Shown here one piece after another: positions 6,592-10,705 of a stretch of DNA of 64,000 bases (positions are counted from its first letter, which is position 1; each line of letters opens with the position of its first letter). The translations under genes and the position numbers were made by a program. This DNA is from Hahella sp. HN01 (GTDB lineage Bacteria; Pseudomonadota; Gammaproteobacteria; Pseudomonadales; Oleiphilaceae): assembly GCF_018986435.1 (NCBI RefSeq), contig NZ_JAHMIN010000010.1, positions 1 to 64,000 of the forward strand, written 5' to 3'. The notes under the pieces are model-generated. The model did not search any database and had not been told where the DNA came from. It saw only the letters and a program-made list of their open reading frames with translations.

Positions 6592-7962
6592 ATGAAGAAA
6601 GTAGTTTTTCTGGCGTTGTTATCGGCGACGGCCAGCCCGTATCTTCAGGCGGAAACGCTAAGAGAATATGGCGCGATGGGCGACGGCGTGGCGGATGACA
6701 CGCAGGCGATATTCAACGCCATTGATAATCACCAGCCTGAAATGGGTTTTTTGGATGGCGAGAACCAGACCTATCTGATCAAGAAGAGAGTCGATGTTAA
6801 TAAAAGCATGGCGATTAAGAACGCCAGATTCTTATTTGCGCCGGACGCCAGCTATCTCGCGAATCCCTCAAACTACAGAGCTTTTTTGATCCGCGGCGCG
6901 GCTGAAGCGCCACTGCAGGTCGAGTTGGAAAATATCGCGCTTGTGCGTGGTGGTAATAAGACCTCTGGCTCTATGTCCGATTCTGCTGGAATCTGGATAG
7001 ACAATGCAAACAAGGTGACCCTGAGTAACGTAGAAGTCAGCGGCAATGGGCGCGGACCTGGCGTTCTGATTGCTGATTCTGACAACGTGACAATCAACGA
7101 CCTGTACGTCCACGATATGTTTTGGAGCCCCTGCCGGGAAGATGAAAGCACGCTAACCAAGAATTCACTGCTATCGCGTAAGGACTGGAGTTCTCGCATG
7201 ATTCATGATCCTGCGAACTGTGGGAGCGACAACCTGATTCGTATTGAGGAGCAAATAGCGGGCTTGCTCATCGTTCGCTCGAATAATATTCGGATTAATA
7301 ATCCCAGCATTGAAAGAATCTACGCTCACTTAATTGATGGCGCTATGCCATATCAAACGGACGGGATTACTATCGGCTCAAACTTTGATGATCTGGATAA
7401 GCAGGCAAATTGCGAACAAAAAACGGACAGGGACGAATTCAATATAGCAATTCGAGGGGCGAAAATAACAGATGTGTGGGAGGGCATTGACTTCACTGGC
7501 AATCCGCTCGCGGATATCCTGGTGGATGTCGCATCCATTTCGCGCACCCATGCCTTCGGCGTAAAGTTCGCTAATGGCGCCTCATGCGCCCTGGTTAAAA
7601 ATGTCACGGTTACAGACAGCGGGCTCTCAGGCTTTGTGTTGACGGGGAAGAACAACCCAGACCATTCGGCGCCTGCGCCTCACTCCGTCACCTTTGACAA
7701 CACCGTTGCAATAAACCCAGGCTCTAATGGGTACTGGCGCGGTGTGGCGAGCATCGCCGGCTACAGAATCATGAACGGGGCGCTGCAGGACCCAACAGAC
7801 ATACGCATCATTAACTCTAAATCCGTTGACACTCAAACTGTGAAAACCATGGATTATGGCTTCTTCTCAGAAGCCTGTGACGCAGCGTTGACGGTCTCCA
7901 ACCTGGACTCTCTTGGACACAGAATCGAAGGCTTAAAAGAGTCCAGCGGTTCTTGTCGTTGA
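6592..7962 (+). CDS. Secreted right-handed beta-helix protein, pectate-lyase-like
   Basis: A 456-residue protein with a signal peptide (residues 1-20, cleavage near YLQA-ET). The mature part opens with the REYGAMGDGVADDTQAIFNAI motif typical of the pectate lyase 3/GH28-like parallel beta-helix superfamily. It continues with many short turns containing N-x-V/I repeats (DNVTINDLYVH, NNIRINNPSIERI, KNVTVTDSG). A QTDGITIG stretch recalls the NTDG active-site region of polygalacturonases, but the first residue differs. The cysteines suggest disulfides. It probably binds or cleaves an acidic polysaccharide outside the cytoplasm; the substrate is unknown. It is a single gene with a clear SD and a downstream hairpin. 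Confidence 0.75.
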   Translation: MKKVVFLALLSATASPYLQAETLREYGAMGDGVADDTQAIFNAIDNHQPEMGFLDGENQTYLIKKRVDVNKSMAIKNARFLFAPDASYLANPSNYRAFLIRGAAEAPLQVELENIALVRGGNKTSGSMSDSAGIWIDNANKVTLSNVEVSGNGRGPGVLIADSDNVTINDLYVHDMFWSPCREDESTLTKNSLLSRKDWSSRMIHDPANCGSDNLIRIEEQIAGLLIVRSNNIRINNPSIERIYAHLIDGAMPYQTDGITIGSNFDDLDKQANCEQKTDRDEFNIAIRGAKITDVWEGIDFTGNPLADILVDVASISRTHAFGVKFANGASCALVKNVTVTDSGLSGFVLTGKNNPDHSAPAPHSVTFDNTVAINPGSNGYWRGVASIAGYRIMNGALQDPTDIRIINSKSVDTQTVKTMDYGFFSEACDAALTVSNLDSLGHRIEGLKESSGSCR

Positions 7963-8743: not shown

Positions 8744-8766
8744 GGTTAAAAGGAGTTATAACCGTG
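8744..8766 (+). promoter_or_regulatory. Ribosome-binding site inside a small hairpin loop
   Basis: GGTTA (8744-8748) can pair with TAACC (8759-8763), placing the SD AAGGAG in the loop directly before the GTG start at 8764. The 5-bp stem is weak, so an effect on translation is conjecture, but the SD clearly selects the GTG start. Confidence 0.45.
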
Positions 8767-10608
8767 AACAAAAACACGCTTAAACGGGCTATTACATTTT
8801 CTGTCTCCACTCTGGCGCTGAGCGTCTCCGCCGTCACTTTGGCCGACGTTTCCGGCCAGGACGCACAGTACGTTCGCGACTATCTGGAGCGTTTCCACGC
8901 TAACCCTGCCGCAGTCATGGACGAAGTGCCTGTCAAAGAAGCCGCCAACGGCGATCTGGCTATGCCAGTATTCAGTGACGAAGCAATTCTCTCCGGCGAC
9001 TTCGTAGAAGATAAGGATGAACTGCGCAGAGATCTGTTGAATGGTTCCCGCAGCAACGGCTTCATGATGATGCGCTCTATGGAGCTCAGCAACGACAATG
9101 CTGCGCGCCTGGTGGACAACGGCGACCAACTGATTGGCAACGTTCACGAAATGGATACTGCGAATCTGACTAAAGCCTCCCTGGCCAGCCAGCCTTGGTC
9201 CGACGACTACTGGGGTCTTTACAAAGGAGCACTGGGCATTCGCTACGCCGATCCCAAGCTGAATGATTCCTGGCCCTCCAACTGGTACGACCACTGGATT
9301 TTCGCGACCAGCACTCACAAGCCGCAAGAATATATCGACGCAGGCGAAATCGATAACCTGTCTCCGTCTGAAAAGTACGACTTGCTGGTGGGCGACTCCA
9401 ACTTCACTCTGACTCAGAAAATGTGGGAGTCCGGTAAAGGCTACTGGGATCGTTACGGTTCCGTTGAAGCCTGGATGGGTCTGTGCCACGGTTGGGCCCC
9501 TGCCGCTTACATGCTGCCGCGTCCATCTAGCTCCATCACTGTTAAGTCGCCAGAAGGCAAGGACATCAAGTTCTTCCCATCCGACATCAAAGCATTGGGT
9601 ACATTGTTGTGGGCGGAAGCGTCCCCAGGCGTGCGCTTTATCGGCGGACGTTGTAACTCCAAAGATCCCGGCAAAGATGAAAACGGACGTATCCTGGATC
9701 AAGCCTGTTTCGACAGCAACCCAGGCAGCTGGCACAAAGCGGTGGTCAACCAGATCGGCGTAAGCAAGCGCAGCTTCGTTATCGACGCGACATTCGATTA
9801 TGAAGTATGGAACCAGCCAGTATTGAAGTACGAATACACTTACTTCAACCCGCAAACTGGCGCTTCCTACAACACAGCGCAAGAAGCGGTTATCGCCATG
9901 AGCGATTACACCCAGGACAAGTTCTCCAAGTATCGCGCTCAGGAAGCGAAGCAAGTCGTCGGCGTTCAGATGAAGCTGACTTACATTGTGGAAACCAGCC
10001 CGACTCACAGAGACAAAGACTATCCGTCATACGACCGTACTTACACCGTTCGTTACGTGTATGACCTGGAGCTGGATTCCAACGGCGACATCATTGGCGG
10101 CGAGTGGTACAACAACCGTCACCCTGACTTCCTGTGGACTCCTGGACCTGGCGCGCACGCTGTCTCTTACTACAACCCGACTGGTTCCACCAGCGAGACC
10201 AAGACAGAGCAAAAAGCGGGCGTAATCGAGCAGAACAAGTGGGCGTTCTACGGTCCGTTCACCACCACTGGCTCCTTCAAAGTCACCATGACTGGCGACA
10301 GCGATGCGGACCTGTACGTGAACAAAGGCGCCCAGCCAAGCGACACTACCTATCAGTGCCGTCCATATCAGGAAGGCTCTAACGAGGAGTGCTCTGCAAA
10401 CGAAGCGGGAACTTACTACGTTGGCGTTAAAGGCTACAACAACAGCTCCAACTACAACCTGAACATTCAATACACCCAAGGCGGCTCTGGCTGGGCGAAA
10501 GGACAACCTATTCCTTCCAGCTGGAAAACCAACGCGAAAAATGCGGCAGGTTACAGCCAGCCTCTGACCACTATCGTTGAGCAACTGTTCAACTGGTCTG
10601 CGGAGTAA
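8764..10608 (+). CDS. Secreted transglutaminase of the GP42/elicitor family with C-terminal PPC domain
   Basis: A 614-residue exported protein with a signal peptide (residues 1-27, cleavage near TLA-DV). Residues about 150-475 match the transglutaminase-elicitor family known from Phytophthora GP42 and marine Vibrio. The motif LCHGWAPAAYMLPRP supplies the probable nucleophile Cys241. His324 (GSWHKAV) and Asp341 or Asp345 (VIDATFDYEVW) would complete a papain-like triad. Directly after comes VWNQPV (348-353), the core of the Pep-13 elicitor epitope. Residues about 480-580 form a PPC (bacterial pre-peptidase C-terminal) domain with the DSDADLYVNKG motif, usually removed after secretion. The start is the GTG at 8764, selected by AAGGAG. 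It is monocistronic with a strong terminator. It likely crosslinks extracellular proteins; the natural substrate is unknown. Confidence 0.85.
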   Translation: MNKNTLKRAITFSVSTLALSVSAVTLADVSGQDAQYVRDYLERFHANPAAVMDEVPVKEAANGDLAMPVFSDEAILSGDFVEDKDELRRDLLNGSRSNGFMMMRSMELSNDNAARLVDNGDQLIGNVHEMDTANLTKASLASQPWSDDYWGLYKGALGIRYADPKLNDSWPSNWYDHWIFATSTHKPQEYIDAGEIDNLSPSEKYDLLVGDSNFTLTQKMWESGKGYWDRYGSVEAWMGLCHGWAPAAYMLPRPSSSITVKSPEGKDIKFFPSDIKALGTLLWAEASPGVRFIGGRCNSKDPGKDENGRILDQACFDSNPGSWHKAVVNQIGVSKRSFVIDATFDYEVWNQPVLKYEYTYFNPQTGASYNTAQEAVIAMSDYTQDKFSKYRAQEAKQVVGVQMKLTYIVETSPTHRDKDYPSYDRTYTVRYVYDLELDSNGDIIGGEWYNNRHPDFLWTPGPGAHAVSYYNPTGSTSETKTEQKAGVIEQNKWAFYGPFTTTGSFKVTMTGDSDADLYVNKGAQPSDTTYQCRPYQEGSNEECSANEAGTYYVGVKGYNNSSNYNLNIQYTQGGSGWAKGQPIPSSWKTNAKNAAGYSQPLTTIVEQLFNWSAE

Positions 10609-10677: not shown

Positions 10678-10705
10678 GGGGCGCAATTTTGCGCCCCTTT
10701 TTTTT
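10678..10705 (+). terminator. Intrinsic terminator of the transglutaminase gene
   Basis: GGGGCGCAATTTTGCGCCCC followed by eight T residues. A textbook intrinsic terminator 69 bp after the stop. Confidence 0.92.

Follow-up and report, generated by a model that had tools for sequence, protein, structure and literature searches.

A GP42-family gene in Hahella and comparisons that suggest mainly Myxococcota kin for the oomycete enzyme

The first 64,000 nucleotides of contig NZ_JAHMIN010000010.1 of Hahella sp. HN01 (assembly GCF_018986435.1; hereafter the window) carry a gene for a true, ordinary member of the TGase_elicitor family (PF16683), the family of the Phytophthora sojae enzyme GP42 and its Pep-13 epitope. 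We put at about 70% the probability that this gene encodes a secreted papain-like cysteine enzyme of the GP42 type, and that the oomycete enzyme belongs with a separate clade of mostly Myxococcota proteins, which is the better candidate source. The worth of the finding lies in the family search, in which the family proved common in two bacterial phyla and in which sequence comparison suggests that the closest bacterial kin of oomycete GP42 among those sampled form a mainly Myxococcota clade, not marine Vibrio.

Family membership and distribution

The preliminary description, made from the DNA letters, had assigned the gene to the GP42/transglutaminase-elicitor type, and the profile search that we ran bears this out (PF16683, 141.1 bits, E-value 4.9e-41, cut-off 25). 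A Pfam search of the 614-residue protein also returned a pre-peptidase C-terminal (PPC) domain (PF04151, 49.3 bits, 9.2e-13), and a sequence search of the Protein Data Bank (PDB) returned both P. sojae GP42 (3TW5, 2.2e-27) and the PPC structure 2luw. The protein is predicted to adopt the GP42 fold, with a match to 3TW5 that spans the whole domain and ends at residue 614, and the cysteine of its CH motif falls at the start of a predicted helix. GP42 is ~31% identical to the Hahella protein, lacks its cysteine pair C297/C315 and its W174, and showed no PPC match in the crystallised chain. An NCBIfam search of the Hahella protein gave no family match. The name "transglutaminase" is shared with Transglut_core (PF01841), but no profile similarity to TGase_elicitor was seen: PF01841 was not listed for the protein at E-values up to 1, and hhalign of the two families gave a probability of 0.2% with a thin profile of 8 rows (8 of the 30 loci passing the motif filter). 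Hahella genomes also carry separate PF01841 genes.

According to the accessible part of PMC4915311, homologues outside oomycetes are confined to some marine Vibrio. The searches extend this published "oomycetes and Vibrio" range: the family is common in Bdellovibrionota and Myxococcota. Genome draws were searched with PF16683 at E-values up to 0.001, phylum names being inferred from named centre records. Matches occurred in 164 of 290 genomes from the phylum of a Bdellovibrio record (Bdellovibrionota; several with 6 to 9 matches, possibly pieces of one gene), 77 of 282 from the phylum of Minicystis rosea (Myxococcota), 10 of 247 from the family of Vibrio pectenicida (Vibrionaceae), 8 of 297 from the phylum of Ca. 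Electrothrix gigas (seven of them weak) and 1 of 398 Pseudomonadota, the window's own genome. None of 14 control genomes matched at that threshold, and two of the 14 did so at E-values up to 10, under the profile cut-off. Matches at E <1e-50 were found in 42 of 282 genomes of the Myxococcota draw and one of 290 (G705) in the Bdellovibrionota draw, and in none of the Pseudomonadota (0/398), Ca. Electrothrix gigas (0/297) and Vibrionaceae (0/247) draws. A motif scan confirmed 122 stretches, from which 77 named loci (L numbers; G numbers are genomes) were retained, among them Zooshikella, Chitinimonas, Thiothrix, Shewanella, Vibrio, cable bacteria, Bdellovibrionota, Myxococcota and others. In a further set of 38 genomes the family was present in six, all in Hahella, where six of seven genomes have it (the window's own counted in each figure).

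Several loci of unusual make-up were encountered. Nine TGase_elicitor matches, of which two belong to a single frame, occur in an Oligoflexia genome (G442; L110, L112-L118); Cys-Asn replaces Cys-His in some of them, and others have Phe, Tyr or Leu at the Pep-13 Trp. Stretches from Ca. Electrothrix and other Desulfobulbaceae/Desulfobulbus (L043, L063, L055, L056) hold two TGase_elicitor genes each, and a ricin-lectin TGase_elicitor gene (L200:3926-5761) is found on a 96.8-kb Vibrio owensii plasmid of mobilizable type. The divergent loci L176-L189, with frames mostly of ~800 amino acids (409 in L177), Ser at N350 in those that align there and a middle part of reduced length, may represent a third clade.

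The nearest sampled bacterial kin of GP42

Trees were built from 90 rows (quick), 54 rows (careful) and 52 rows (L-INS-i, after removal of two long rows). In all three, GP42 groups with a set of 30 loci, here clade A, with support of 100, 100/99 and 100/99, respectively; clade A comprises 29 of the 30 best-scoring Myxococcota-draw loci (fragment L172 was dropped) and L119 from the Bdellovibrionota draw. The window protein lies outside clade A in every tree, in a clade B with Hahella, Zooshikella, Chitinimonas and Vibrio, where the 90-row tree also places the Myxococcota loci L050, L065, L092 and L109. In these trees Hahella and Vibrio are on one proteobacterial branch, and the Vibrio proteins (L034 from V. 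pectenicida, L021) are ~51% identical to the Hahella protein over the shared region. Clade A proteins from the Myxococcota draw (L146/L196, L190, L198) share the family and motifs of the Hahella protein but belong to the other clade and carry other modules; the clade A proteins inspected have mostly lipoprotein-like N-termini, and those of clade A are GP42's nearest, with identity of up to 46% and scores of up to 281 bits. L119, whose contig measures 28 kb, is possibly misbinned.

Domain identity to GP42 averages 39.7% in clade A (31.9-45.8, n=30), 30.4% in all of clade B (n=59), 29.7% in Vibrionaceae/Vibrionales (n=6) and 31.4% in Hahella (n=4). A phmmer search with the GP42 chain scored clade A at 150-279 bits, the best other locus (L066/L096, Pleionea) at 125, seven Vibrio/Vibrionales loci among the matches listed at 95-116, and the window at 93. 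In favour of the published view, that oomycetes acquired GP42 from a marine Vibrio or a Hahella-like proteobacterium, Vibrio members with VWNQP exist, and the Pep-13 stretch of L021 (Vibrionales) is identical to that of GP42 at 9 of 13 positions, clade A reaching 10 at best. Yet a single clade of GP42 and Vibrio was rejected in both trees tested (p 3.4e-9, 54 rows; 3.9e-46, 52 rows), and 93-116 bits stand against 150-279 for clade A, which leaves this origin scarcely credible. The preliminary description had held that the gene widens the family and bears on how oomycetes gained it, and to that extent it was right; the Hahella/Vibrio branch, though, is not the nearest to GP42, the mainly Myxococcota clade being nearer. 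Because GP42 groups with the latter, clade A is the better candidate source.

GP42 is nested in clade A beside 18 members in the 54-row (98/95) and 52-row (93/94) trees, and beside all of clade A except L174 and L175 in the 90-row tree (84). Four points weigh against a Myxococcota-type origin. A position of GP42 as sister to the entire clade A was not rejected (p 0.060, 54 rows; 0.245, 52 rows), and therefore the tree alone is no proof of the direction of transfer. Eukaryotes are represented by one sequence, the oomycete GP42, whose branch is long (1.01, 1.79 and 1.14 in the 90-, 54- and 52-row trees), as the tree program flagged in the 54-row and 52-row runs. The clade A loci were taken from the Myxococcota draw by best score and not at random, and most of the weaker matches from its 77 genomes are absent from the trees. 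Finally, identity to GP42 over the Pep-13 stretch does not discriminate between clades, averaging 7.6/13 in clade A vs 7.5/13 in Vibrionaceae.

Clade A genes could instead have passed from oomycetes to Myxococcota, or be eukaryotic contamination of the assemblies. The nesting of GP42 within clade A is not significant, some of the genes lie on short contigs and few of their neighbours were identified: in a check of ten regions the contigs measured 8.05 Mb (G883), 3.2 Mb (G835, whose gene is absent from the trees), 661 kb (G920) and 206 kb (G945), the remaining fetched contigs being shorter, down to 10.7 kb (L196), and of six neighbouring open reading frames tested two exceeded the Pfam cut-off (a protein kinase and a TonB receptor), three fell below it and one was unmatched. 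Such genes nevertheless occur on the two contigs of megabase length and, in one case, near the TonB receptor gene; their products have lipoprotein-like N-termini in 9 of 10 cases by eye (the start of L192 is unclear), and strong matches recur across the Myxococcota draw, as given above. In addition, the cysteines C297 (88/89 bacterial rows) and C315 (86/89), which probably form a disulfide, are present in both bacterial clades and missing from GP42, so that GP42 looks derived. We regard reverse transfer or contamination as distinctly improbable.

The Pep-13 core and the candidate active site

Conservation was counted over 161 distinct bacterial domain sequences, some of which are overlapping pieces of one protein; rows from the motif scan lean to the CHGW and EVWNQ motifs because its seeds included both, and the other rows were drawn with the Pfam profile. 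The residues named beforehand (CHGWA from Cys241, H324, D341, D345 and VWNQPV at 348-353) are all in place in the Hahella protein. The link then made to the plant-recognised Pep-13 epitope stands for the VWNQPV core, but its significance was overstated: the Hahella protein is identical at 6 of the 13 residues of the complete epitope, and VWNQP is near-universal in bacterial members of the family, both in 89 bacterial rows (V 89/89, W 88/89, N 89/89, Q 84/89, P 86/89) and in the 161 (V348 151, W349 155, N350 150 with S in 9, Q351 139, P352 157). Since VWNQP is near-invariant in bacterial members, it reflects the enzyme, not plants. Mimicry of Pep-13 by the Hahella protein was considered and is ruled out by the 89 rows.

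H242, next to the candidate nucleophile, is present in 149 of 161 rows (otherwise N 7, D 2, Q 1, P 1, gap 1). The 11 rows with another residue there represent nine proteins by place (L116_0 repeats L114_0, and L183 repeats L176); they keep C241 in 11/11 and H324 in 9/11 cases, and two rows with H242 have Tyr at H324 (L050, L170). Conservation leans towards H324 as catalytic base, and a C241-H324-D341 triad is plausible on the same grounds. Two observations count against the triad and the choice of H324: in the structure prediction that we ran, H324 falls on a helix, and the histidine of the preliminary description disagrees with that of a review (PMC10318531), the accessible part of which places the active histidine of the GP42 crystal structure directly after the Cys, partnered by either a strand-2 Asn or a helical Asp. 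By position, D274 and N350 would fit these Asp and Asn partners.

The transglutaminase activity of bacterial members faces two further difficulties, namely that the literature examined yielded no assay of a bacterial family member and that the papain-like fold also houses proteases, amidases and deamidases. The Hahella protein could thus be a secreted papain-like peptidase, amidase or deamidase, with transglutaminase activity peculiar to the oomycete branch. Its identity to GP42 of ~31% over the domain would allow this, many matches of the PPC part (on plasmids and in the PDB) are peptidases or collagenases, and papain-like folds shift between such reactions according to the accessible part of PMC10318531; against it, most residues of the active region, the Pep-13 core included, are common to GP42 and bacteria, and the predicted fold match covers the entire domain. 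We consider this alternative unlikely, though one to be taken seriously.

We instead favour a gene whose GP42-type product, carrying a Sec signal and a probable N-terminal pro-segment, would leave the cell, type II secretion being the likely route. Outside, Cys241 would attack the glutamine side chain of a protein and the acyl group would pass to lysine or another amine, a transamidation that would cross-link surface or target proteins. VWNQP, located where a core strand begins, would be retained for the needs of the enzyme, not for plant recognition, and the PPC module (a ricin-type lectin in the Vibrio members tested) would serve as an accessory attachment domain.

The Hahella locus and the meaning of the finding

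The gene (Table 1) is single copy in a host genome of 7.13 Mb. Its copies in three near Hahella genomes (L201, L202, L204) are intact, with protein identity of 94.1-98.5%, and the ratio of nonsynonymous to synonymous substitution (dN/dS) of 0.048, 0.066 and 0.034, respectively, indicates purifying selection. A decayed or inactive relic found no supporting evidence; given the intact frame, these ratios and the retained conserved residues, its probability is close to negligible. G+C content (0.538) and that of third codon positions (0.655) resemble the neighbouring genes and count against recent foreign DNA. Residues 28-125, modelled in part with low confidence, are possibly a pro-peptide region.

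Table 1. Features of the TGase_elicitor gene and its product in the window (residue numbers refer to the 614-residue protein; row counts to the 161 bacterial rows)
Feature	Positions	Strand	Remarks
Ribosome-binding site AAGGAG	8750..8755	+	8 nt 5' of GTG; letters read directly, role putative from position
TGase_elicitor (GP42-type) gene	8764..10608	+	614 amino acids, GTG start, internal stops 0
Sec-type signal peptide, residues 1-27, without lipobox	8764..8844	+	read by eye; predicted local distance difference test score (pLDDT) <50 over residues 1-26
N-terminal region, residues 28-125	8845..9138	+	predicted helices 31-46, 79-93; low-confidence stretch 94-109
PF16683 TGase_elicitor domain, residues 126-461	9139..10146	+	Pfam profile match
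Cys241-His242, candidate nucleophile and CH motif	9484..9489	+	start of predicted helix 241-250; C241 159/161 (2 gaps)
Asp274	9583..9585	+	predicted helix 272-286; invariant, 161/161
His324, candidate catalytic base	9733..9735	+	predicted helix 320-333; 156/161 (Y 2, I 1, gap 2)
Asp341	9784..9786	+	end of predicted strand 339-341; 152 D + 7 E of 161
VWNQPV, residues 348-353, Pep-13 core	9805..9822	+	N350 opens predicted strand 350-361
PPC domain, residues 500-557	10261..10434	+	PF04151 9.2e-13; 2luw; beta-sandwich matches
C-terminal helical tail after PPC, residues 585-613	10516..10602	+	conserved (consensus QPLxxIVExL); sequence comparison and predicted structure
Intrinsic-terminator-like stem	10678..10697	+	8 pairs (7 G-C), then eight T; 70 nt downstream of gene; consensus scan

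The terminator scan found 4 sites vs 3.8 expected in shuffles, the stem in Table 1 having the strongest stem and tail. The MacAB-type genes downstream are probably a separate unit, because this stem and its eight T lie in between. The nearest named loci are those of Hahella ganghwensis (85% over the tested stretch) and Hahella sp. CCB-MM4 (83%). When nine window genes were tested in five other Hahella stretches of 16 kb, flanking genes were common to the window and L201, L202 and L204, and in L203 and L205 (71% identity) the TGase gene was the sole match. The anatomy of the locus is that of a stand-alone gene. A functional link with the downstream MacAB-OEP genes was considered and is unsupported, given the intervening stem and the sharing of the TGase gene only by L203 and L205. 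A search of a phage collection gave no TGase match. Upstream, 6592-7962 (+) encodes a beta-helix protein with pectate-lyase-like and endosialidase N-terminal matches; it was not found in the syntenic stretches of the three near Hahella genomes and is therefore a possible recent insertion. Opposite the TGase gene, an open frame of 420 codons (8746-10008, -) is probably a mere shadow of that gene's codon use.

Accessory modules vary across the family. PPC accompanies the domain in the window and H. ganghwensis, whereas a ricin-type lectin takes its place in Vibrio (L034 and V. owensii) and also occurs in Algicola (L022), Pleionea (L066) and Zooshikella (L045); none was found in L016 (Zooshikella), L023 (Thiothrix), L043 (cable bacterium), L030 (Bdellovibrio) and L092. 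Within clade A, L197 has PKD and PPC, L198 PPC, L190 a P-domain and L196 none.

Transfer from Vibrio to oomycetes is the printed account of the origin of GP42 (Reiss 2011, as given in the accessible part of PMC4915311). The main text of a systematic search for prokaryote-to-oomycete transfers (PMC5023847) contains none of the terms transglutaminase, GP42, Vibrio, Myxococc or deltaproteobacteria. Among the top-ranked matches of our literature search, in which subscription papers are thinly covered, no title or abstract opening links the GP42 family to Myxococcota or Bdellovibrionota. Both phyla are known for predation. We think it fairly likely that GP42, with its Pep-13, derives from a Myxococcota-type surface enzyme, not from Vibrio, that the family serves in essence as an extracellular tool of these two predation-known phyla, and that the occurrence of its separate branch in Hahella and Vibrio is sporadic. 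As a trigger of plant immunity Pep-13 is well studied, and the origin of the enzyme that bears it hence matters. Bacterial members already have the epitope core in fixed form, which is consistent with plants reading a region in which the enzyme tolerates no change, and the bacterial enzymes make the question of the active site, the histidine of the CH motif or H324, testable in harmless species.
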